Origin: an uncultured beta proteobacterium
GTDB taxonomy: Bacteria > Pseudomonadota > Gammaproteobacteria > Burkholderiales > Burkholderiaceae
DNA length: 33,080 bases
Direction: 5' to 3'
Assembly (NCBI GenBank): GCA_903995005.1
Contig: CAJEZV010000012.1
Location: forward strand, 1 to 33,080
Positions within the stretch are counted from its first letter, which is position 1. Every line of letters begins with the position of its first letter. A program made the position numbers and the translations under genes. Shown one piece after another: positions 17,538-32,759 of the stretch. The notes below the pieces were generated by a model that had not been told where the DNA came from, did no database searches, and saw only the letters and a list, made by a program, of their open reading frames with translations.

Positions 17538-19157
17538 ATGGGTCCACAAAAATTTATAGCAGCCAATACCGCTGACGCCCTAAAGCTTATACGCGCCGAG
17601 ATGGGTCCTGATGCTATGGTGCTCTCGACTAAAGATACTGATCAAGGTGTCGAAGTAATGGCTATCACTTCTGGTGATTTAGCAAACCTTTCTTCACGCT
17701 CTGAACTCATTAATCCAGAACATGGTGAGCATGGTGTCTTTTCAGAACGCTCGCTAGAACGCTCAGGATTATCAGATAAGTTTGCCAGCGCCATTGCTAG
17801 GCGCGCACCTTCTCCCGCATCCTCTACTCCTGCTAGAGCGTATGCGGGTGTGCCCAATGGTATTGTGCGGCGTAACCCCGCTAGAGCTGAGCGCTCCATT
17901 CGCGCTCCTGGTGCCGAGGCTTTTTTACCGACTTCATTTAATGATGCAGAGCGCATTCCACGAGGATCAACTAATGTTATCAATCCTTCTAATAATGATG
18001 CCATCTTTAGCGCCAGTCTTGCAGCGAACACCAAAGCAGCGCAAGAGGCAGCAGCACTCAATGCCATGAAAAGTGCAGCTCAAAATGCAGCGCAGAGCAT
18101 ACGTGCTGCAAGCGCCCCCAGCCCAGCTAGCATTCCATTAAGCGCCCCCAGCCCTCCCATTGCAGGACCAGCCGAAAGTTCGCCGAAAGTCGAAATGTTG
18201 CTCTCAGAAATCAGTGAAGTGAAGCAGCTATTGCAGTCACACGTTGCCGGCAGTTTTTGGGGCAATCTGCAACAAGAAAATACCCGTATCACTGAGGTTG
18301 TAAAGCATCTTCTCAATAGTGGCTTTTCACCAAAACTGGTAGCGGAAATCTCCCAAAACCTTCCTGAGAATTTGAGTGTATTGCACCTATTGAAAAATGC
18401 TCGGGAGCAAGTTAAATGCATGATGAAAACATCCCATGCATTTGATACTTTTGATCGCGGTGGCGTATTTGCCTTTATTGGCCCTACTGGGGTTGGTAAA
18501 ACAACTACGGTTGCCAAGATTGCTGCTCGCTGTGTGCTGCGCTATGGTCGCAATCAAGTAGCTTTGCTTACAACTGATACCTATCGGATTGGAGCTCAGG
18601 AGCAACTCAAAACTTTTGCCAAAATATTGGGTTTATCGGTTACGGCAGTAAGAGATAGCGAAGACTTGGCTGCTAAAATTAAAGACTTTTCAAATCGCAA
18701 GATCATTTTGCTTGATACCGCTGGCGTAAGCCAACGTGATGCCCTAATGGTTGAGCAATCTCATTTGCTAGAGCATGGCTCCGGTAAAGCACGTCGCATC
18801 CTGGTAATGAGCTCCACTACCGATTTGCGCACTCAAGAAGAAGTCATTAATTTACACAATCAAGCAATGCAAAATACCCATGGTGAAAAGTTGGATCATG
18901 TCATCATCACTAAAATTGATGAAGCAGCACACTTAGCTCCGGTGATAGATAGCGTCATTCGACATAATCTATCCATCTTGTTTGTATCCAATGGCCAACG
19001 TGTTCCAGAAGATCTAAACCAGCCCGATGTCAATTACTTAAGCCACCGTGCGATGGCTATGCGCGCTTTTTCTGAAACTTTCTCATTGACTGACGAGCAA
19101 GTTCCAGCCCTACTTTCCGATCATTTGGGTGACTGGATTCGCAAAGTAAACCAATGA
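17538..19157 (+). CDS. flhF: SRP-type GTPase FlhF
   Basis: FAFIGPTGVGKTTTVAKIAARCVLRYG, LLTTDTYRIGAQEQLKTFAKILGL, ILLDTAGVSQRD; variable basic/Ala-rich N-terminal region. Confidence 0.96.
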   Translation: MGPQKFIAANTADALKLIRAEMGPDAMVLSTKDTDQGVEVMAITSGDLANLSSRSELINPEHGEHGVFSERSLERSGLSDKFASAIARRAPSPASSTPARAYAGVPNGIVRRNPARAERSIRAPGAEAFLPTSFNDAERIPRGSTNVINPSNNDAIFSASLAANTKAAQEAAALNAMKSAAQNAAQSIRAASAPSPASIPLSAPSPPIAGPAESSPKVEMLLSEISEVKQLLQSHVAGSFWGNLQQENTRITEVVKHLLNSGFSPKLVAEISQNLPENLSVLHLLKNAREQVKCMMKTSHAFDTFDRGGVFAFIGPTGVGKTTTVAKIAARCVLRYGRNQVALLTTDTYRIGAQEQLKTFAKILGLSVTAVRDSEDLAAKIKDFSNRKIILLDTAGVSQRDALMVEQSHLLEHGSGKARRILVMSSTTDLRTQEEVINLHNQAMQNTHGEKLDHVIITKIDEAAHLAPVIDSVIRHNLSILFVSNGQRVPEDLNQPDVNYLSHRAMAMRAFSETFSLTDEQVPALLSDHLGDWIRKVNQ

Positions 19158-19972
19158 GTACCTTAGGCACTGCTGGCGGCACCGATCAGGCCGCAGGTTT
19201 ACGTAATATTTTTGGCTCTGAAATGTGCCGCGTTATCTGTATAGCCAGTGCTTTAGATCCAGACTCTACTATTCACTTAGGTCACGGTACCGCACACAGT
19301 ATCAAGCAACTCGGTCATCGGGTACTTCTTGTCGATGAAGTACCTTTGGCTGATCGCAAGACAATGTCTGGTTTTTTATACCCAGTACGTTATGACTTAG
19401 GGCAAGTATTCTCTAACTCTGTTGACTTAACCAAAACCATTAAGCAAATAGAAGACAATCTTTGGTATGCCACTAGCGTAAAACTACGTTCCGAAGTCAA
19501 TGGCCGTTTTGCTAAGTATCCCAAGTTAGATGAGCGCTTGGTAAAGCATGAGGTTGATATCGACTATCTTGTTTTCCCAACGATTGATCCACAAGCCAAT
19601 ATCGTTGCATACTATGGCAACAATATTAAACGCATTTTAGTCACATCTACCGAGGAGTCCTGTCTAAAAAGGGCGATGGTGATGATTCGCCAAATGGCCC
19701 AATTGCAAATCGACGAGCCTTTAGCGGTACTGATTGTTGGCGGCCAGGATGAGGAGGCCGGAAATGCCGCTTTTGAAAAACTCAGAGAAGCGGCTCACAG
19801 AGCTCTTGAGCAAACCATTGAATCTTTGGGTTGGATTAAGGCTTTTACAGCCCAACGCGTAGAAATTGATGTTGATGACATGAGCTTCAATCCTGTTACC
19901 CGTGGTACACCCCATGAATTTGTTCTGCCACATGGTTTCTTTAAGGCAATTTCTGCCAAAATTACAGCTTAA
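19154..19972 (+). CDS. FlhG/FleN-like protein without a P-loop
   Basis: Position between flhF and fliA with an ATGA overlap. CRVICIASALDPDSTIHLGHGTAHSIKQLGHRVLLVDE aligns to the MinD/FlhG N-terminus but lacks KGGVGKT. Confidence 0.75.
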   Translation: MSTLGTAGGTDQAAGLRNIFGSEMCRVICIASALDPDSTIHLGHGTAHSIKQLGHRVLLVDEVPLADRKTMSGFLYPVRYDLGQVFSNSVDLTKTIKQIEDNLWYATSVKLRSEVNGRFAKYPKLDERLVKHEVDIDYLVFPTIDPQANIVAYYGNNIKRILVTSTEESCLKRAMVMIRQMAQLQIDEPLAVLIVGGQDEEAGNAAFEKLREAAHRALEQTIESLGWIKAFTAQRVEIDVDDMSFNPVTRGTPHEFVLPHGFFKAISAKITA

Positions 19973-20767: not shown

Positions 20768-21181
20768 CTACACTTTGCGGGAAAGAACTCCACCAACTGA
20801 GCCAGGTACACCTCCTTCACTATCGTAGGTGGCGCTGGGCGCTTGCTGTGCAATAAAAGACTGCATTGCCGCACTGCGTTGCATCGCAAGACGAATCAAA
20901 TCCCCGTTGATTTGATGATTAACTGAAGCCTCGTCTAATAGGCTAAGCAAAACTTTCTTTTGCTCACCCGAAAACTGCTGAATATCTTGTTTGAGCTTTT
21001 CTGCTCCGCCAGGATAATCATTGATTGCGTCTAACGCTACATTAGTTAAATCTAAGGCAGCAGGAAGTCGATCCATATCATTGGCCTCTAGCGAGCTACG
21101 TAAGTCTCGAATTGCGCCTGCAACCTTTTGCAAAAAGGCCTGCATTCCATCAAATGAATTTGATGGAACTAAATCTGACAT
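20768..21181 (-). CDS. FlgN-like export chaperone
   Basis: Small helical protein after flgA-flgM; position fits FlgN, sequence signature is weak. Confidence 0.55.
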   Translation of the reverse strand: MSDLVPSNSFDGMQAFLQKVAGAIRDLRSSLEANDMDRLPAALDLTNVALDAINDYPGGAEKLKQDIQQFSGEQKKVLLSLLDEASVNHQINGDLIRLAMQRSAAMQSFIAQQAPSATYDSEGGVPGSVGGVLSRKV

Positions 21182-21219: not shown

Positions 21220-21555
21220 TTAAGCTTGTTTTGGCTTTTGACCAATAGCAGCAACAACATCTTTAAGCATAGCCTGAGAAATCTTTTTGTAATCAATCTT
21301 AAATTCGCCATTAGCTACCTGATTGCGCAATTTTTCAATCAAGGCTTCGTCTGTCACTTTGCTTGATTTGGAGTCACTTTGCACTTCAGCTAATTTAGCC
21401 GCTAGGCTAATATCAAGATTAACTGCTGGGCCAGCAACTACATCCGTTGCCACTTTATTGGCGCCCGGGTTTACAGCAGTCGAGTTTAAGCCTGGGTTGG
21501 CTTTGCCAACTCCTGAGTTTGGCGGAATTAGCGCCGAATTCTCGTTAACTTTCAT
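21220..21555 (-). CDS. flgM: Anti-sigma-28 factor FlgM
   Basis: C-terminal KVTDEALIEKLRNQVANGEFKIDYKKISQAMLKDV is FlgM-like; lies between flgA and flgN-like. Confidence 0.9.
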   Translation of the reverse strand: MKVNENSALIPPNSGVGKANPGLNSTAVNPGANKVATDVVAGPAVNLDISLAAKLAEVQSDSKSSKVTDEALIEKLRNQVANGEFKIDYKKISQAMLKDVVAAIGQKPKQA

Positions 21556-21660: not shown

Positions 21661-22338
21661 TTATTCGACGGTTACCACTACTACCGATGGCCTTAAAACC
21701 TTACCTTGCAACACCTGACCATCGGCTAAACGTACCCGGATCATATCGCCAATCATCCCAGCGGTTTGGGCTACGCCCTCACCAGATACTTCAAAATCCT
21801 TACCACTTAAAACTAGCCTAACAGGATCTCCTACCTTTACTACGGATGATTCCTTTAAATCGTTTAGCCCTATTGGAGATCCCATTTGCAGATGTCTACT
21901 TAAAACCCGCTCATAAGCTACTTTAGGGGTGCGCAAAACATCATCAGGCAAGAGACTCAAATCCCCTTCTATGACCCTTATATCAGTAGAATCAAGCTTT
22001 AGACCCGCAGGAAGATAGCGGGCGGCAACCACATAATCTCCAAATACATGCACATTAAAGGGTATATTTACCATCCAGGCTGCCTTGGCGCATCGCAATT
22101 GTAAGGTTGTTCTCCCCCAAACACGAGATCCAGGGGCCGTAGCGATCTCGATAGAACCCCCTAGACAGACTGGAACATTGATATTTGGGTCCACAAGATC
22201 AGCCTGCACGCGTAAGCCATTCACACTAGGGCTTTTTTGAATAAAACGCATAATTTCCTTTTCAACCTCAGGAGCTATGGCTGCCTGAGCGCTTGTGCCT
22301 AAAAAATAGGCAGCTATGATGGTCCAAAAAAAACGCAT
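21661..22338 (-). CDS. flgA: P-ring assembly protein FlgA
   Basis: Signal peptide; VVAARYLPAGLKLDSTDIRVIEGDLSLLPDDVL and GDPVRLVLSGKDFEVSGEGVAQTAGMIGDMIRVRLADGQVLQGKV (SAF/FlgA). Confidence 0.93.
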   Translation of the reverse strand: MRFFWTIIAAYFLGTSAQAAIAPEVEKEIMRFIQKSPSVNGLRVQADLVDPNINVPVCLGGSIEIATAPGSRVWGRTTLQLRCAKAAWMVNIPFNVHVFGDYVVAARYLPAGLKLDSTDIRVIEGDLSLLPDDVLRTPKVAYERVLSRHLQMGSPIGLNDLKESSVVKVGDPVRLVLSGKDFEVSGEGVAQTAGMIGDMIRVRLADGQVLQGKVLRPSVVVVTVE

Positions 22339-23924
22339 TATCTAGAGTACCGGTCTAGGGCAATCCAAGAGTAAACATTATTGGCGCCGTCTAGTGCTAC
22401 GCCTGCCATCCAGTAAGGTCGCTCTAGGGATCTTGGAAGATTTTGATGCACATTCATATTTTGAACACCCAAGAATTCGTGGGCGTGAATCACATAATCT
22501 TGATTACCAGCGCGAACATAGATACTTCGAGCTGGGTGAATGATCTCCCCCAAGAAATCAATCTTAGAATCACCCCCCCTGGTCAAGGGCTCTTCCCCAA
22601 GGTACTGAATGGCTGATACCGCATATTGCTCACCATGGCGAGTGAAAAAGGCCATTGGCATTCGAAGTAAGCTAGATGGACAAGACAAACGCACACCATC
22701 GTGATGTATCTCAAGTGAACCCCCTATCTCAGCCATCATGCTGCTCACAGCTAAGAGGTGCTCACTAGAAAGCGTCACATGATCTAAATCGACAAAAATC
22801 ATCAGCTCTTGCTGAACAGCAAAGATACTAGGACAAGGCGGCAAAATACTGAGTATGGTCAAGAGTTGCTGCGCAATCTCCGGATCAGCATAGACTTCAT
22901 CAATTAACAGCTCATCTGTTAAATTATCAAAAATATGACGCAAAGATTGCTGTCCAGACCGCACGAGTTCATCTTGCTCGCGACCAAGTAAATAATCTAC
23001 CTCTACGCCACTCCAGTTATCGCCCTTACCAACTAAACTGCGCGCTTTTTGCATGCGATTTAAATTGATAGAGCGATCTAAGGTGTAATGTTTATCTAAA
23101 TAACGCGTCTTGCTAGAGTACTCAAAAGCACTTTCTCGATCAATCGGCTTTGTTAAATTTTCGGGTAATGAGAAAGGCTTTGGCTCAGGCGTGGCAAATA
23201 CTATCGGAGGAAATTCTTTTCTTGGCGCAAACAAATGATTGATTTCATTTACTGCGCGGTCTAGATTCTGCTCCAAGACCTGTTGGCGCGAGGCTGGCTC
23301 TTGCGCAGCAGGCGCCATCATTTGCTGTGGTGCTGCTTGTTCTGGAGTACTTCCCTTTTTCGCCTGCAAACCACGAAAGAGTCCCGGCGAAAATTCTTGA
23401 TTTGGAAACACGTCCTCAACCTCTTCCTCAAGCGGGAAATCTTTATCTGCAGCAACTGTCACACTGCTTTCGACTTGATTCGACTGTACAGACTTCTCTG
23501 ATTCCTGGTTTAGATTTAAACTGTTTACCGCAATAGGCTCAGGAGAAATTGGTGCACCAGCTTTTAACTGAGCTAATTTATTGACAAAACTAGATTTAGC
23601 AGCTTGCAATATCTCATCACTAACACCCGATTGGGATGTGTCGCCAGGATGAACTTGTGTGACCCCAGCATTTGTTAGGGCAATGAAGTCATTTATCAAT
23701 AATAAAGATTGCGCTTGATTATTCTTAAATTGATTTGCAAGTTCTTGTGCAAACTCGGAGAGATCCTCAAGACCTGCCCCGTCAAGTGCATTGGCTAGAT
23801 CAATGCAATGCAATACAATGGACTCAACCTTGATTGGCTCAGATGTATTTTTAGGCGTAGAAGACAGCAACCCTTCGATGGCACGATCGACGTCTATTAA
23901 AAACAGGGGTTTTTCTTCGGCCAT
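22338..23924 (-). CDS. CheA/ChpA-like protein with eroded kinase core and CheW-like C-terminus
   Basis: MMAEIGGSLEIHHDGVRLSCPSSLLRMPMAFFTRHGEQYAVSAIQYL resembles the end of a CheA ATPase domain running into a CheW domain; RSIYVRAGNQDYVIHAHEFLGVQNMNVHQNLPRSLERPYWMAGVALDGANNVYSWIALDRYS resembles the CheW second half. TAATG overlap with flgA. Confidence 0.6.
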   Translation of the reverse strand: MAEEKPLFLIDVDRAIEGLLSSTPKNTSEPIKVESIVLHCIDLANALDGAGLEDLSEFAQELANQFKNNQAQSLLLINDFIALTNAGVTQVHPGDTSQSGVSDEILQAAKSSFVNKLAQLKAGAPISPEPIAVNSLNLNQESEKSVQSNQVESSVTVAADKDFPLEEEVEDVFPNQEFSPGLFRGLQAKKGSTPEQAAPQQMMAPAAQEPASRQQVLEQNLDRAVNEINHLFAPRKEFPPIVFATPEPKPFSLPENLTKPIDRESAFEYSSKTRYLDKHYTLDRSINLNRMQKARSLVGKGDNWSGVEVDYLLGREQDELVRSGQQSLRHIFDNLTDELLIDEVYADPEIAQQLLTILSILPPCPSIFAVQQELMIFVDLDHVTLSSEHLLAVSSMMAEIGGSLEIHHDGVRLSCPSSLLRMPMAFFTRHGEQYAVSAIQYLGEEPLTRGGDSKIDFLGEIIHPARSIYVRAGNQDYVIHAHEFLGVQNMNVHQNLPRSLERPYWMAGVALDGANNVYSWIALDRYSR

Positions 23925-23957: not shown

Positions 23958-25943
23958 TTAAACTTTGATTTCGCGCTTGAGATCACTAAAGGCGCGACTC
24001 AATTCGTCAAATTCTTCTTGCCACAAATCCAGATCCCGCATTACCTGCTTCGCATCCATATTCAGCAACTCAATAACCTCAGGTGATACCTGAGGAGTGG
24101 CAGTCTGAGCATCAGCAACCCGGTCAAGAGCCTGCGCTAGTGAAGTACGCATTTTGGAAACAGTCGCCTCAACTCGCTCAACTAATAGGTTTAACTGCTC
24201 CGTTTCCACGGCTAATTGCTTGCTGGAGTGGTTGTCCAAAATTGCCAAATACAAACGTACGCCCTGCTGCTTCAAAGCAAAGAAAGCATCTTGTAGTTGC
24301 TCTAATGGGCCTCCGCGATCACCGTGAGAGCTGCTGCCATAAGACTCATCTCCTTGTGTAGAGCCCGAGCGCATCTGAGCACTCTTGTCTTGCAAGGTAT
24401 TGACTGAATGTCGCATTTTATTGCCTAACTGGCCAAGAGTCTTGATACGAGACTCAATGCCAATCACTTGATCTCTCAAGTCTTTACTTAACTCGGTAAT
24501 AACATTTACTACAGTTTTTAGCTCTGCATTCCCTGCACTAGCGGTCTCATTTTTGTCATCACCCGATTTAAGATCTGCTGAAAGCTGGGGCTCTGCTTTG
24601 GATTTCACATTCCTGGTATTTGCAGCCTTATTTAATCCCAAATCAATTGAACCCAACAACTCATCAGCTGCAGCTGCAAGCTTGGTAGTACGCTGACCTT
24701 CGACTTGAGTAACACGGCTATTTTTAAATAACATTGCACCTCCCAAGCCAGCACCAATCAAGCCAATCATGCTGAGTAATGTTAGGCCTAAAAATCCACC
24801 TGCGGTATTAAAGTCAAATAAACGTAATCCTGTTGAATTTTTCTGTGCAACAACGCGCAGTGCTTCGTGATCAGAAGCAAACTCACGAACCAGCTGAATG
24901 TTATTGGCATACAACTTGAGTGCAGAGGCGCTCTCTTGTGGCAACTTGGTGTGCCACGGACTTTGATGCACTTTTGGGATTGCTTGAGCAAGGCTCAAGG
25001 TTGACTTACCAGACGATTTTTTACCTGCCTCAATCTCAATCAACACTTTTTGATCAATCACAGTGCCCAAAGTCTTTTGGAGATCTGATGAGGCAGTTGC
25101 GCTGGTAATATTTTTTTGCCAAACTGCATTGGCCTTAACAAACTCAGTCAAACTCTCAGCATATTTTTTTGCAGGGGAATCGGTAGTCATTTTGTCTAAT
25201 TCGAGCGGCCCTTTTGAGGAAAGCAACACCTCAGCAGATTTAGCCAAAATATCCAAACCAGCCAAACCCTTCTCTTGAGCAAGCACTATCAAAATAGACT
25301 GTTCTGCGGTTTTAGCACCAACCAATATATCCTGAACATCCACAGCATTAACCGACTTTGACTCAGGCGTTGCAATAGTCAGCGCAGGAGTAGACATATC
25401 TCCCTCATTGGCAAGCTCTGCATACTTATCTGGCTTGCCAAATAGTAGATTCATGATTTTGGAATCTAACTTTTGGAAAAAAGCTAAAGCCGGATTATCC
25501 GAAAGTGTTGCCATGGCACCAGACTCATCAGCAGAACTCTTCGTGGCAACTAGACTCTTGTTACTATTTGCCGGAGTTGACTTCTGTGAGGTGACGCTAT
25601 TTGATGTGCTTGATACGCTTGAGCTATCAGCAGGTACTTTCAGATCATCGGTCATTGATCTTAAAAGTCGATCTGCCTTTTTCAGGTTATTAAAAAACTC
25701 TGAATCTAAGATATGGGTTCCTGAAGTTTGCTGCTGTAGATCTTTTAAAGCAGGGATTAAGCGTAGTACTTCAATCTGATCGATGTCAATGGCTTGTAAA
25801 TAACGCCCTTCGACTAGCCAGCTACGAGCCGTCAGATAAGCGCTAGCACTGGCAAGCAAAGCAACTGAAAAAGAAATGGCAGTCAACCACTGCCAAGGCC
25901 TAGTCGAGCGTTGAAAGACATGATTGTTATATATTTTGCGCAT
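23958..25943 (-). CDS. PilJ/MCP-like membrane receptor without a canonical signalling tip
   Basis: N-terminal TM, helical periplasmic-type region, second TM (FLGLTLLSMIGLIGAGLGGAMLF), then coiled coil; lies between CheW-like and CheA-like genes. Confidence 0.55.
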   Translation of the reverse strand: MRKIYNNHVFQRSTRPWQWLTAISFSVALLASASAYLTARSWLVEGRYLQAIDIDQIEVLRLIPALKDLQQQTSGTHILDSEFFNNLKKADRLLRSMTDDLKVPADSSSVSSTSNSVTSQKSTPANSNKSLVATKSSADESGAMATLSDNPALAFFQKLDSKIMNLLFGKPDKYAELANEGDMSTPALTIATPESKSVNAVDVQDILVGAKTAEQSILIVLAQEKGLAGLDILAKSAEVLLSSKGPLELDKMTTDSPAKKYAESLTEFVKANAVWQKNITSATASSDLQKTLGTVIDQKVLIEIEAGKKSSGKSTLSLAQAIPKVHQSPWHTKLPQESASALKLYANNIQLVREFASDHEALRVVAQKNSTGLRLFDFNTAGGFLGLTLLSMIGLIGAGLGGAMLFKNSRVTQVEGQRTTKLAAAADELLGSIDLGLNKAANTRNVKSKAEPQLSADLKSGDDKNETASAGNAELKTVVNVITELSKDLRDQVIGIESRIKTLGQLGNKMRHSVNTLQDKSAQMRSGSTQGDESYGSSSHGDRGGPLEQLQDAFFALKQQGVRLYLAILDNHSSKQLAVETEQLNLLVERVEATVSKMRTSLAQALDRVADAQTATPQVSPEVIELLNMDAKQVMRDLDLWQEEFDELSRAFSDLKREIKV

Positions 25944-25986: not shown

Positions 25987-26394
25987 TTATAAAACCCCCA
26001 CCAAATGAAAATCTGAACCGTTGTAGTGTAGAAAGGGTGTTTCAGGAAAAATGAATGCATGGAACGGGCCCACAATATTGTTTACCCTGAAGCCAAGGCC
26101 CTTATCTATCCCATCTTTTAATACCACTACCCATGGAGCATGATCACGTTTTAATACCTGCTGCCAAGGCGCCATATTCTCAACTCGCTGACCTGTTCTA
26201 AGTAGCTGAAAATGATTGCGAAGATAGACGGGCTCACCCTCATGCACTACCACGCCGCTAATTTTGAGATCTTTAATCGATTGCTCCGCCTCAGGACAAA
26301 GAAAGACTGAGTGGACAAGCGATGCCGGCAGCGCATAACGCTCCCCATTGATGCGCAGGCCTAACCAATACTCTTGATTCTCTAAAGAACTCAC
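25987..26394 (-). CDS. CheW/PilI-like adaptor
   Basis: YWLGLRINGERYALPASLVHSVFL...ISGVVVHEGEPVYLRNHFQLL...WVVVLKDGIDKGLGFRVNNIVGPF follows CheW fold order; GTGA overlap with the upstream PDZ gene. Confidence 0.7.
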   Translation of the reverse strand: MSSLENQEYWLGLRINGERYALPASLVHSVFLCPEAEQSIKDLKISGVVVHEGEPVYLRNHFQLLRTGQRVENMAPWQQVLKRDHAPWVVVLKDGIDKGLGFRVNNIVGPFHAFIFPETPFLHYNGSDFHLVGVL

Positions 26395-27419
26395 GATATC
26401 TTACCTGCGAGGCGACGTTGATACCAAAACAGGAATCCAGCAATCCCAAAAATGACTAGACTACAAACGAAGCCGACCACCGCATCACCCATGCCAGTCA
26501 TATAAAACGCATTTTTATTTTCTATTTTTCTTCTTTGAGAAAAATAAGCATCAACACTCTCAAGTACTTTTTTATGTTGCCAATTCAGTACATCCTTGGA
26601 CTGAAGTTTAACTGGAGATGATCCGGTTAGATCTATTACTCCTTTGGAAATTAAGTTTAAGCGTTTGGCATTTTGCATTAAGTTGTTCGCAGCTTCAGTA
26701 CGCCAATCAACCGAAATAACAGGCAGCATTTCACGGCGGTATTGCTCAGCCATGCGTTTGCTGTCTTGCTCAGTGAGATACACTGCTTCTGGTGGAACTG
26801 CAAATCTGATACCACTATTACCGCCAGTAATAGGAGTACGGCTTGGATTTTTCATTGCAACCGAAATATTGTTTTGCTTATTTCTCAGTAACCTCAAGCT
26901 TGTTTCAGAAGATAACTTTTCATTTAGAGCCTGGTAATAACCCATGACTGACTCAATCTTAATAGAGCTAACGTACTGCACAAGATCACCCGGCTTTACC
27001 CCAGCTACATCGGCGGGTGATCCAGGTTCAACTGATTCAACAGTAGGAAGCGTTATTGTCAAAATCGGCCCAGAGCGCTTATTTTCAAACTCTGTAAAGT
27101 ATTGAAATGCCCTATTCACAGCATCATCCAAATTGACTGGAATAATCGCATCTTCGGCCAATTTAGGAACATCACTAGGCTTTAATCGACGAGTATTAAG
27201 TGTGGAATTATTGAGACGAAAATCAATTGCCTGATAACTGACATACTCTTCCAAATTGGGCATCGTTACCTTCAGATTTTTTAAGTCCGAGGAGGAGCTT
27301 GATAATTCAGCGGCGGCACCCAAAAGGGTTGCCAAAGAAAAAAACAATAGGAGGCTTGAAAAAGCTAAAAACCAAAAGTAAAGCCCTTTTTGCGTCCGAG
27401 GAAACTGAATTTTTAGCAC
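26391..27419 (-). CDS. PDZ-domain membrane protein with two TM segments
   Basis: PDZ core VESVEPGSPADVAGVKPGDLVQYVSSIKIESV; N-terminal TM FWFLAFSSLLLFFSLATLL and C-terminal TM VVGFVCSLVIFGIAGFLFWYQRR. No HExxH protease motif seen. Confidence 0.8.
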   Translation of the reverse strand: MLKIQFPRTQKGLYFWFLAFSSLLLFFSLATLLGAAAELSSSSSDLKNLKVTMPNLEEYVSYQAIDFRLNNSTLNTRRLKPSDVPKLAEDAIIPVNLDDAVNRAFQYFTEFENKRSGPILTITLPTVESVEPGSPADVAGVKPGDLVQYVSSIKIESVMGYYQALNEKLSSETSLRLLRNKQNNISVAMKNPSRTPITGGNSGIRFAVPPEAVYLTEQDSKRMAEQYRREMLPVISVDWRTEAANNLMQNAKRLNLISKGVIDLTGSSPVKLQSKDVLNWQHKKVLESVDAYFSQRRKIENKNAFYMTGMGDAVVGFVCSLVIFGIAGFLFWYQRRLAGKIS

Positions 27420-27427
27420 GTTCGTTT

Positions 27428-28237
27428 TTACTTTTTGTTAGAGCCAAAATCAGTTTTGCTACTAGCAAACTTATTACCGCCCTGATTTAAAATGAATCGC
27501 TGCTTTAATAACTCAACCTCTCGATGCTCAGCCATTAGCTGAACCTCTGTTTTGCGTTTATCCATGAGCAATCTACAACTAGCAATATCGTCAATCCAAT
27601 CGCCTGACTTCATTTCAATAATGGCCGATTCTAAGATATCACGACCATTTGTCTCGTTGGCTTTGATGCGCACAACAAATAAACGCACATCATCTACATC
27701 GCGCAAAGTCAGCTCGACAAAGTATGTTCTTGCGAAGCGATGATTAACAGCAGTCAGCGTGTACGGATAGTTATGTAGGGTGAAAAAAATCTTAGTGCCA
27801 TCATCTAACGGCATCGGCTCAACCTTAAGCTCAGTAATACCGGCTTGAGCATGCCACTCAAGATCGGTCTGTTGAGCCTCTAGACTCTTTTTTGGAAAAG
27901 CGCGGGTTTCAAAATAAATTTGATAAAGAGTTTCCGGCAAATGCCTTTCATTGGCCAAATTCTTCAGAACTTCGGCAGTAGAAGTAATTCGCAATCGCTC
28001 TGCCATTAAATCTAACTTCATATTAGCAATCTTTTGATTGATTACCTCTTCAAGCTGATGAGTCTTTTGCAAACTGGCTACCACTACGGGTTCAATGGGC
28101 TGAGCTTGCTGATCTTTAACCTCTTCGACTACTTTTCCATAGAAATCGCGGATGAAAAAATAGACCAGGGCAATGAACATGACCAGGCTCACGATCATGA
28201 TCAATTTTCCAGTAGTAAATGATGCGAAGAAATTCAT
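27428..28237 (-). CDS. Membrane-anchored protein of unknown function
   Basis: N-terminal TM LIMIVSLVMFIALVYFFI then a soluble domain; no recognised family. Operonic position. Confidence 0.75.
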   Translation of the reverse strand: MNFFASFTTGKLIMIVSLVMFIALVYFFIRDFYGKVVEEVKDQQAQPIEPVVVASLQKTHQLEEVINQKIANMKLDLMAERLRITSTAEVLKNLANERHLPETLYQIYFETRAFPKKSLEAQQTDLEWHAQAGITELKVEPMPLDDGTKIFFTLHNYPYTLTAVNHRFARTYFVELTLRDVDDVRLFVVRIKANETNGRDILESAIIEMKSGDWIDDIASCRLLMDKRKTEVQLMAEHREVELLKQRFILNQGGNKFASSKTDFGSNKK

Positions 28238-28281
28238 AGAGAAATTAAACCCTAAGAGCAGACAAAAGTTGCGTCAGTGTA

Positions 28282-29040
28282 TTACTCATGCCAAGAAGCC
28301 CCTAAATACCAGCGATTTAAACGACTTTGGACACGCGCATTCTCAATAGCACTTCGAGTACTTTCAAATTCTTTAAGGGCGAGTTTTTTAGGCTCATATA
28401 ACTCGCAACCAGCACGAATACGATCGATATCAGTTCCAGGACGTACATTTTTAATTTCCAAGTCTATGGTGGTTGAACGCAATCTAAGGCGCTCAAAATA
28501 ACCGGAATGCCAATAACGTCCTACCTCCACTTCTGTTGCACCTAAACGTAGATCTAATAAAATGCCATGGTCAGATATATCAATTACCTTAGTGAGTAAC
28601 TCTTGCCCAGCACCAAGGCAGAGCACAAAATTTAAATCATCATCTGCGGGTCCAAGGGTTCTGAATTCTTTGCGGCGCTGAATCAAAATTAAATCTGCTG
28701 GCAATGGGCATAACAAGTTGCCCTCGTCATTTAGCTTTAAATTGCTTGCCAAGAATTGCAACTTACCGCTATCGCTACACAGTACCACAATGCGATGCCC
28801 ACCAATTAGACTTGTAAAACCACCCTCCGGCTTTATTTCGGACTTCATCACCAATAAACCTTGACGGATATCCAAGATACTCACTGGTATGGCTGTACCA
28901 TTACCATCAATTGGATATAAACCAGCTAAGGGAATTTTATGCAACTCCCGTTCTATCGTCTTAGTAATAGCACGAGGTTCAACATGGAATCTTGGCTCGA
29001 TACTTTTGAGTCCTTCAGGCGGGAAAATATTAAATCTCAT
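28282..29040 (-). CDS. YcgR-like PilZ domain protein
   Basis: PilZ motifs QRRKEFR (RxxxR) and DISDHG (DxSxxG) with a preceding YcgR-N-like beta domain. Confidence 0.8.
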   Translation of the reverse strand: MRFNIFPPEGLKSIEPRFHVEPRAITKTIERELHKIPLAGLYPIDGNGTAIPVSILDIRQGLLVMKSEIKPEGGFTSLIGGHRIVVLCSDSGKLQFLASNLKLNDEGNLLCPLPADLILIQRRKEFRTLGPADDDLNFVLCLGAGQELLTKVIDISDHGILLDLRLGATEVEVGRYWHSGYFERLRLRSTTIDLEIKNVRPGTDIDRIRAGCELYEPKKLALKEFESTRSAIENARVQSRLNRWYLGASWHE

Positions 29041-29049
29041 ATGAATAAA

Positions 29050-29499
29050 TTAAGCACCACAAATTTGAGAAAAAATAATGGCCAAGGGAGTCCCTGCCGG
29101 AACTGGATCGTCGTTTAATTCAAAACCAGACTGTGTCTGCAAATTAGGCTTGCCCATGGCATTAGTATCGCCATAATTTACGGTAGCTAAAGTGGAGTAG
29201 GTATTGCGAACGCAATTAAATAAAATATTACGGCGTATTGATTGAATTCGCTCGGGTGCAGCGCCCTCTTCTTGTTTTCGATTAGTAATAATCCATACTT
29301 TCTTCCAATCGGGGGGTAGTACTTTAATTGAGCTCTTATAATAGGAAAGGCTATATTGGCGCCCATCTATTACGGTTATCAAATCGTCATTTGCTTGAGC
29401 CAAAACGAGACCACTGCCATAAATGACGAAAAAGATAATAAAAGTGGTTTTTTGAAAAAAGGAGAGACCCATACAACTAACCCACATTAAATGGGTCAT
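29050..29499 (-). CDS. Secreted/periplasmic protein of unknown function (start may be 29469)
   Basis: Signal-peptide-like MGLSFFQKTTFIIFFVIYGSGLVLAQA; head of the minus-strand operon. Confidence 0.65.
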   Translation of the reverse strand: MTHLMWVSCMGLSFFQKTTFIIFFVIYGSGLVLAQANDDLITVIDGRQYSLSYYKSSIKVLPPDWKKVWIITNRKQEEGAAPERIQSIRRNILFNCVRNTYSTLATVNYGDTNAMGKPNLQTQSGFELNDDPVPAGTPLAIIFSQICGA

Positions 29500-29618: not shown

Positions 29619-29810
29619 TTATGAGGTTTTCGCATCACTATGGTCAGCATCACCTTGTGGAAGGGCAGCACTCTGGCCAGCCACCACATGCTTTATCCAA
29701 TAACGCGCAGCCGCAATATTGGTCGTGTAAAAAGCAATCTTGTTGCTTTTTACAATGGTGTAAAAGCGTTCACCACGAATACGGTGCTCATTAAGGATAG
29801 GATTTTCCAT
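29619..29810 (-). CDS. Possible small protein, 63 aa
   Basis: ATG with AGAGGA upstream; contains a perfect inverted repeat in the coding region. Confidence 0.4.
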   Translation of the reverse strand: MENPILNEHRIRGERFYTIVKSNKIAFYTTNIAAARYWIKHVVAGQSAALPQGDADHSDAKTS

Positions 29811-31541: not shown

Positions 31542-31559
31542 ACCACTTTACGAAGTGGT
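31542..31559. terminator. Weak hairpin between convergent rpoN and GGDEF genes
   Basis: ACCACTT-TACG-AAGTGGT, short stem, no strong T tract. Confidence 0.4.
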
Positions 31560-32264
31560 AATTTCAATTCGGTTTTTGCCTGCCTTTTTGGCGCTATACA
31601 TTGCCTGGTCTGCCCGCTCAATGAAGGTCAGCGCATCTACTTGCTCCTGTGAAGCAATGGATGTAGCCGCCGTAACAATAGATACGCCAATGCTTGCGCC
31701 CAAGAACAAGGTTAGTGGCTCATCAGCGCTCAATCTTAGAGGATGAGAAATGGCAGTCAATAGTCGATTGGCTAAGTTTTCAACTGATTCCGGTCGATCA
31801 ACATTTTGTAGAACAACCACAAACTCATCACCACCCCAACGGCATAATAGGTCATCCGATCGGATGGAGTTTTGCAAACGTGTACTTACCAAGCATAAGG
31901 CTTGATCGCCTAAGGCATGCCCGTGCTGATCATTAATCTCTTTAAATCCATCTAGATCAATAAAACATACCGCTAAGATGGCATTACTACTTTGTAGGCC
32001 CCTTAGCGCAAGGTCGAGACTTTCAAGTAAGCTAGATCTGATTAAGAGTCCAGTTAACTCATCACGTAAAGTCGAAGATGGCGATGGCTGATCATAAAGT
32101 AGCTCTTGAAAAATATGGCGCTCAAGATGAGTCAGTTGCGCATCAGAATGGATCTGTGCAATAAGCTCTTGATGATTGGCTGCTTGAGCCAATTTTTGCA
32201 TTTGAGCAAATAGAGTCTTAAATTGCTCTGCCACGTATTGTGACTTCGCTTGGCGATCTGTCAT
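31548..32264 (-). CDS. GGDEF diguanylate cyclase
   Basis: DELTGLLIRSSL, FIDLDGFKEINDQHGHALGDQAL, RSDDLLCRWGGDEFVVVL (intact GGDEF, RxxD I-site 5 aa upstream), SIGVS, ADQAMYSAKKAGKNRI. Confidence 0.95.
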   Translation of the reverse strand: MTDRQAKSQYVAEQFKTLFAQMQKLAQAANHQELIAQIHSDAQLTHLERHIFQELLYDQPSPSSTLRDELTGLLIRSSLLESLDLALRGLQSSNAILAVCFIDLDGFKEINDQHGHALGDQALCLVSTRLQNSIRSDDLLCRWGGDEFVVVLQNVDRPESVENLANRLLTAISHPLRLSADEPLTLFLGASIGVSIVTAATSIASQEQVDALTFIERADQAMYSAKKAGKNRIEITTS

Positions 32265-32759
32265 TTAATTACAGATAATGGATTTAACGCTCGACTCAAT
32301 AGTCTCGGGATTAATTGGCAGGATGTCAGACTTACTTTTCTTAAAGAAGACTTCGCTCAAGGCTTTGGACTTGGCATCATAATACATATAGGAAATACGA
32401 TAAAAGAAAAAATGATTTTCTTTGCAATCCTGAGCACCACTCAGACTAAAAAGATTAAAAGGCTTGCCATTAGGCGCTAATTGCTCGGCATTAAAGTGAG
32501 CTGAAACGGTATACCAAACATAAGGCTCTTCTGCTTTACCCCAGCCTGACAATAAATACACAGTGGATTGTCCATTCTTTCGCAGTACAACATCCTTATC
32601 ATTATTTGACTTTTGCGCACCCTTTGCTCCACCGGATTTTGCTGGACCTGGCTCAGGATGCTCAGACTTTGCTTGCGCTCCCACTACAAAGCAGACGGTT
32701 AATAGTGCGCATAGATAATATTTCATCCGGGGGATTACAGTACTCAATAAAAGAGCCAT
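32265..32759 (-). CDS. Secreted protein of unknown function
   Basis: Signal peptide MKYYLCALLTVCFVVGAQA with internal start; no family recognised. Confidence 0.6.
   Translation of the reverse strand: MALLLSTVIPRMKYYLCALLTVCFVVGAQAKSEHPEPGPAKSGGAKGAQKSNNDKDVVLRKNGQSTVYLLSGWGKAEEPYVWYTVSAHFNAEQLAPNGKPFNLFSLSGAQDCKENHFFFYRISYMYYDAKSKALSEVFFKKSKSDILPINPETIESSVKSIICN

Follow-up and report, generated by a model that had tools for sequence, protein, structure and literature searches.

A gene block of putative chemosensory origin in the flagellar region of one Polynucleobacter lineage

Chemotaxis is a textbook phosphorelay that runs from receptor to motor. The locus described here raises the question of what a CheW-like protein and a possible CheA derivative do in a flagellar gene cluster, next to membrane proteins and a PilZ protein. 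The window (the whole stretch of DNA analyzed, 33,080 nucleotides) belongs to a Polynucleobacter MAG, a draft genome of 1.66 Mb and 80% completeness, and its closest named relatives are Polynucleobacter. It is a flagellar region, with fliH, fliI, fliJ, fliF, genes for a sensor kinase and a sigma-54 response regulator, fliE, fliD, fliS, flaG, the flagellin gene, flhA, flhF, an flhG-like gene and fliA; rpoN and a diguanylate cyclase gene stand after fliA. The genes under study form a block on the minus strand, bounded by rpoN and fliA and lying opposite flhF, the flhG-like gene and fliA. Their order is A, B, C, D, E, F, G, flgA, flgM, flgN, as follows.

29050..29499, minus strand: gene A, secreted Adhesin_E-family protein, 149 aa as an ORF (Pfam Adhesin_E, 5.5e-9; homologue alignment)
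28282..29040, minus strand: gene B, YcgR/FlgZ-like PilZ protein, 252 aa (PilZ, 0.0039; RxxxR and DxSxxG)
27428..28237, minus strand: gene C, orphan with one N-terminal TM (11-29), 269 aa (TM scan)
26391..27419, minus strand: gene D, PDZ between two TM segments, 342 aa (PDZ_6, 2.9e-6)
26391..26394, minus strand: GTGA overlap of the D stop and the E start (sequence)
25987..26394, minus strand: gene E, CheW-like, 135 aa (homologue matches to Pfam CheW)
23958..25943, minus strand: gene F, 661-aa membrane protein in the chemoreceptor's place (alignment, TM scan)
22338..23924, minus strand: gene G, 528 aa, P1-like at 1-121, linker, P5-like at about 392-518 (hhalign, AF2, motif loss)
21661..22338, minus strand: flgA (ChapFlgA, 5e-22)
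21220..21555, minus strand: flgM (FlgM_jcvi, above its cutoff)
20768..21181, minus strand: flgN (FlgN, 0.00045, under cutoff; position conserved)

The four ORFs A to D that the initial annotation placed at 29499-26391 on the minus strand are all present in the sequence with the features it described. Spacing is close from A down to flgA: the gaps are 9 nt (A-B), 44 (B-C), 8 (C-D), -4 (D-E), 43 (E-F), 33 (F-G) and -1 (G-flgA), followed by the widest, 105 nt between flgA and flgM, and 38 nt between flgM and flgN. The GTGA through which the initial annotation saw the PDZ gene D coupled to the CheW-like gene E is present as an overlap at 26394-26391, and this 4-nt overlap is found again in most loci. 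Sigma-28-like sites were no more frequent than chance, and every sigma-54-like site inside the block carried at least two mismatches. Upstream of gene A lies a small ORF of 63 aa (29619-29810, minus strand), conserved at 60-120 aa in relatives, for which no credible family was found. Past rpoN, a canonical GGDEF diguanylate cyclase (31548-32264, minus strand) adjoins a second Adhesin_E-like gene (32265-32759, minus strand); the pair is kept there in most close relatives.

To which flagellar system does the block belong? In a survey of 186 Polynucleobacter genomes, FlhA falls into two score classes, here called type A and type B. G is present in 38 of 38 type-B genomes and in none of 21 type-A genomes (Fisher 1.9e-16, uncorrected for relatedness), and C in 33 of 38 and 0 of 21, respectively. 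A tree of 30 FlhA sequences groups eight type-B proteins with one from f18, a family other than that of Polynucleobacter, in a 100/100 clade whose stem measures 1.12 changes per site; the four type-A proteins lie outside it. Among 399 genomes sampled across the order, C occurs in seven, all Polynucleobacter or f18; the G profile gave no further credible match among 369 genomes of the class. E-F-G-flgA-flgM-flgN is contiguous in all loci read, as far as each stretch reaches. C-D stands ahead of E-F-G except in one subgroup of five genomes (G018, G036, G136, G192 and G197), and fewer loci have A-B in front of C. The gene order is kept across many genomes, far beyond chance, and the genes are conserved together with one flagellar lineage, so that the absence of co-conservation, which would have spoken against the proposed operon, is not what we see. 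The idea of one unit of six genes was too strong, since E-F-G is always kept, C-D mostly and A-B in fewer loci; the locus is modular. In G073, G is split into two ORFs by a frameshift (L110 3823-5287), the sole clearly disrupted copy among the loci read. We also considered the FlhG-like protein (19154-19972, plus strand), which keeps DQAxxLR, has no Walker A and has no Pfam match. Type-A loci and two other Burkholderiales loci are likewise without Walker A, so this loss is not special to the type-B lineage.

Gene E is supported by sequence as CheW-like: of 20 E homologues, 11 hit Pfam CheW (PF01584) with E-values of 0.1 or less, the lowest being 2.5e-5; the protein encoded in the window reaches 0.0011, below the Pfam cutoff. 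Gene G is probably CheA-derived but kinase-dead, as judged from profile alignments, motifs and a model. By hhalign it aligns in register to the end of CheA P4 and to P5, nearly to the C-terminus; the P5 match beats 239 of 240 block shuffles (8 runs) and the reversed profile, and the hhalign probabilities are low. Residues 1-121 are modeled fairly confidently as a five-helix bundle, with AF2 poor beyond 121 (the models of both G and C were built on shallow alignments). A Foldseek search with this bundle gave CheA P1 as the best matches (5 of the top 10, Z 10-11, E-values not significant), scores that are not decisive since helical bundles reach them by chance. The profile comparison with CheA P1 is weak alone, four of 60 shuffles scoring equally high. 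CheA families gave no match in the G homologues except for Hpt in one of them, at 0.0038. One G-profile match, to a hybrid kinase of a gammaproteobacterium (G692, E 6.5e-4), lies past the Hpt histidine and out of register, and was therefore left unused.

What G has lost is the catalytic equipment. In 20 G sequences the residue aligned with the phospho-histidine is I, V, F, R or Y and never His. The H-box is at its proper place in 0 of 20 G sequences versus 10 of 10 CheA sequences, and the same counts hold for the ATP-binding boxes N, G1 and G2. Gene F, between E and G, has a strong TM segment at 387-405 and a weaker N-terminal one. As a candidate degenerate MCP it was rejected: its EQTNLLALNAA-like stretch did no better than heptad-block shuffles in profile comparison, and profile searches of Pfam and PDB returned chance-level matches only. 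The description of these proteins as degenerate chemosensory proteins is thus upheld for E, moderately for G, as CheA-derived and without a kinase, and not for F, which shows no MCP homology above controls.

CheA is missing from most genomes of this lineage. Neither CheA nor the MCP signaling domain (PF00015) was found in the nine type-B/f18 genomes tested (G000 and eight others). Across the genus, CheA occurs in three of 45 G-positive genomes (G100, G132 and G164), and CheA proteins of similar length and score also turn up where FlhA is missing, some CheA being carried by 30 such genomes. CheA is missing from 16 of 21 type-A flagellated genomes as well, so its absence alone is not diagnostic of the type-B lineage. 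One type-B genome encodes a CheA histidine-kinase dimerization domain (G164:C1:594775-594948) roughly 6 kb away from its flhA. By sequence, FliM is more telling. The CheY-docking peptide LSQxEIDALL is absent from 15 of 15 type-B/f18 FliM proteins, read stop to stop; it is present in six non-type-B FliM, of which three come from CheA-carrying type-A genomes and three from Burkholderiales outside this family, and altered yet recognizable in three type-A genomes without CheA (control G037, read out of frame, is left out of these counts). The draft genome to which the window belongs yielded no FliM, so we infer the loss of the peptide in this organism from its relatives. In laboratory culture Polynucleobacter MWH-MoK4, which has flagellar genes, is usually non-motile (PMC5018217).

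At the head of the block, the initial annotation saw two orphans, a secreted protein and a one-TM protein, flanking a PilZ protein. The first, gene A, has a hydrophobic, signal-like N-terminus, and its Adhesin_E match (5.5e-9) is above the cutoff, so A is no orphan. Several A homologues start at the residue equal to Met10 of the window protein, which makes 29472 the likelier start. An Adhesin_E gene also lies upstream of C in one f18 genome (G053). The second, gene C, does stand as an orphan with one TM, with no credible relatives in Pfam, NCBIfam or PDB; its identity to 16 other aligned sequences is 33-89%. Profile searches of Pfam and PDB gave matches at chance level only, the AF2 model had a pLDDT of 44 and a structure search with it returned nothing. 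In two f18 loci a gene of about 278 aa with no family match lies directly before C (L053 4372-5208; L101 8646-9479).

Gene B was described as YcgR-like with intact RxxxR and DxSxxG motifs, and both were found, conserved: RKEFR (123-127) and DISDHG (154-159), the latter in the variant form DIGRSG in one relative (L052). Its Pfam PilZ score is 17.9 bits, under the 22.5 cutoff; its profile matches the YcgR structure 5kgo_D (0.0012, over 79-199), and against the flagellar brake YcgR equivalog NF047947 it scores 16.9 bits, below the cutoff of 400. In G100 and G104 a GGDEF-EAL gene sits between B and C. The suggested link to c-di-GMP gains support from the intact PilZ motifs and from this gene within the block of two genomes. 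A second PilZ gene stands right after flgN in three loci (L009 16630-17406, L049 12206-13027 and L114 12636-13388), which is the position of flgZ in Pseudomonas. In gene D, a TM scan puts the two segments at 15-33 and 313-331. Pfam shows PDZ families only, with no serine protease domain; where DegP/HtrA models hit the protein, they cover PDZ or C-terminal parts, and a comparison with plasmids gave no matches.

We favor, with a probability of about 0.5, the reading that the block is a kinase-independent membrane scaffold of chemosensory derivation, kept by one divergent flagellar lineage and provided with a c-di-GMP input. G would retain the docking end of CheA (its P5-like part) and a P1-like bundle without the phospho-histidine or the ATP site. 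F, C and D would hold E and G at the inner membrane, where F, through its periplasmic part, and D, through its PDZ, may sense a signal from the envelope or from assembly. The complex would then pass its state on to flagellar assembly or rotation by direct protein contact, not phospho-CheY, with B supplying c-di-GMP input as a YcgR/FlgZ-like brake. We hold only tentatively that a phosphorylation-free chemosensory complex controls the motor, its CheW- and CheA-derived subunits contacting the motor or the assembly line under tuning by PilZ and c-di-GMP.

It is rather unlikely, in our estimate, that the block is a positioning or assembly scaffold like ParP or FipA of polar flagellates, in which the products of C to G would carry no signal and would act with FlhF and the FlhG-like protein to set the place or the timing of the flagellum. 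The block does adjoin flgA, flgM and flgN and face flhF, the flhG-like gene and fliA, and in Vibrio the CheA-P5-like domain of ParP serves as a scaffold, with arrays of CheW, ParP and MCPs forming without CheA (PMC5706961). However, F and D have periplasmic parts and their neighbors include PilZ and GGDEF-EAL genes, which suggests input signals, and C-D is missing in five type-B genomes. That G owes nothing to CheA, and that the block specifies a novel membrane complex, serving flagellum assembly and containing a single CheW-like subunit, seems improbable. The low hhalign probabilities, CheA-family matches that are nil apart from one Hpt and the poor model past residue 121 agree with a chance likeness to P1 and P5, whereas the P5 match runs in register almost to the C-terminus and withstands both shuffling and reversal, and the domain order and the CheW-like neighbor fit CheA. 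We give little credence to a gene-expression checkpoint, in which the complex would sense the envelope state or c-di-GMP and control FlgM/FliA output: the block shares the strand of flgA and flgM at close spacing, with fliA opposite, but Pfam shows no DNA-binding domain, kinase or output enzyme in it, and the 105-nt flgA-flgM gap could hold a separate promoter.

All seven genes A to G are under purifying selection. Relics of a lost chemotaxis pathway drifting along with flgAMN would account for the lost kinase motifs and the broken G of G073, but this is hardly credible given the retention of G in every type-B genome and dN/dS values against close relatives of about 0.01-0.14 (by counting, where dS was computable; rough, as several pairs are close to dS saturation or past it), similar to those of flgA and flgM.

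If the scaffold reading is right, a lineage keeping an adaptor and CheA-like pieces under strong selection, minus the kinase and the CheY site, would show how arrays of this kind act free of phosphate. The Polynucleobacter block would then offer a small, genome-streamlined freshwater model for testing such arrays. The initial annotation knew of no described system of this composition, and our literature search, which most subscription papers lay outside, agrees: we could not find a description of chemosensory-derived parts in this combination and state.

Parts of the block do resemble known systems. D, like HtrA/DegS-type proteins, carries a PDZ, probably periplasmic, on a membrane anchor; unlike them it has no matched protease domain, and two TM segments flank its PDZ region. 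B recalls the YcgR/FlgZ brake in that its PilZ motifs are intact and it belongs to a flagellar locus, and PilZ control from a flagellar transcript is known from FlgZ in flgMNZ of Pseudomonas (PMC3913639). The second copy after flgN in some relatives adds to this likeness, whereas B itself lies near the head of the block and scores far under the NCBIfam YcgR cutoff. The P5-like end of G recalls the ParP array scaffold, although ParP partners true MCPs and ParC, and MCPs are absent here. In layout the block has a parallel in the chemosensory core unit of CheW, MCP and CheA. The block departs from it in that G has neither phospho-histidine nor ATP-binding boxes, F is without an MCP signaling domain and FliM of the lineage is without the CheY-docking peptide; it resembles the core unit in its order of CheW-like protein, membrane protein and CheA-like protein, and in a G whose two ends are P1-like and P5-like.
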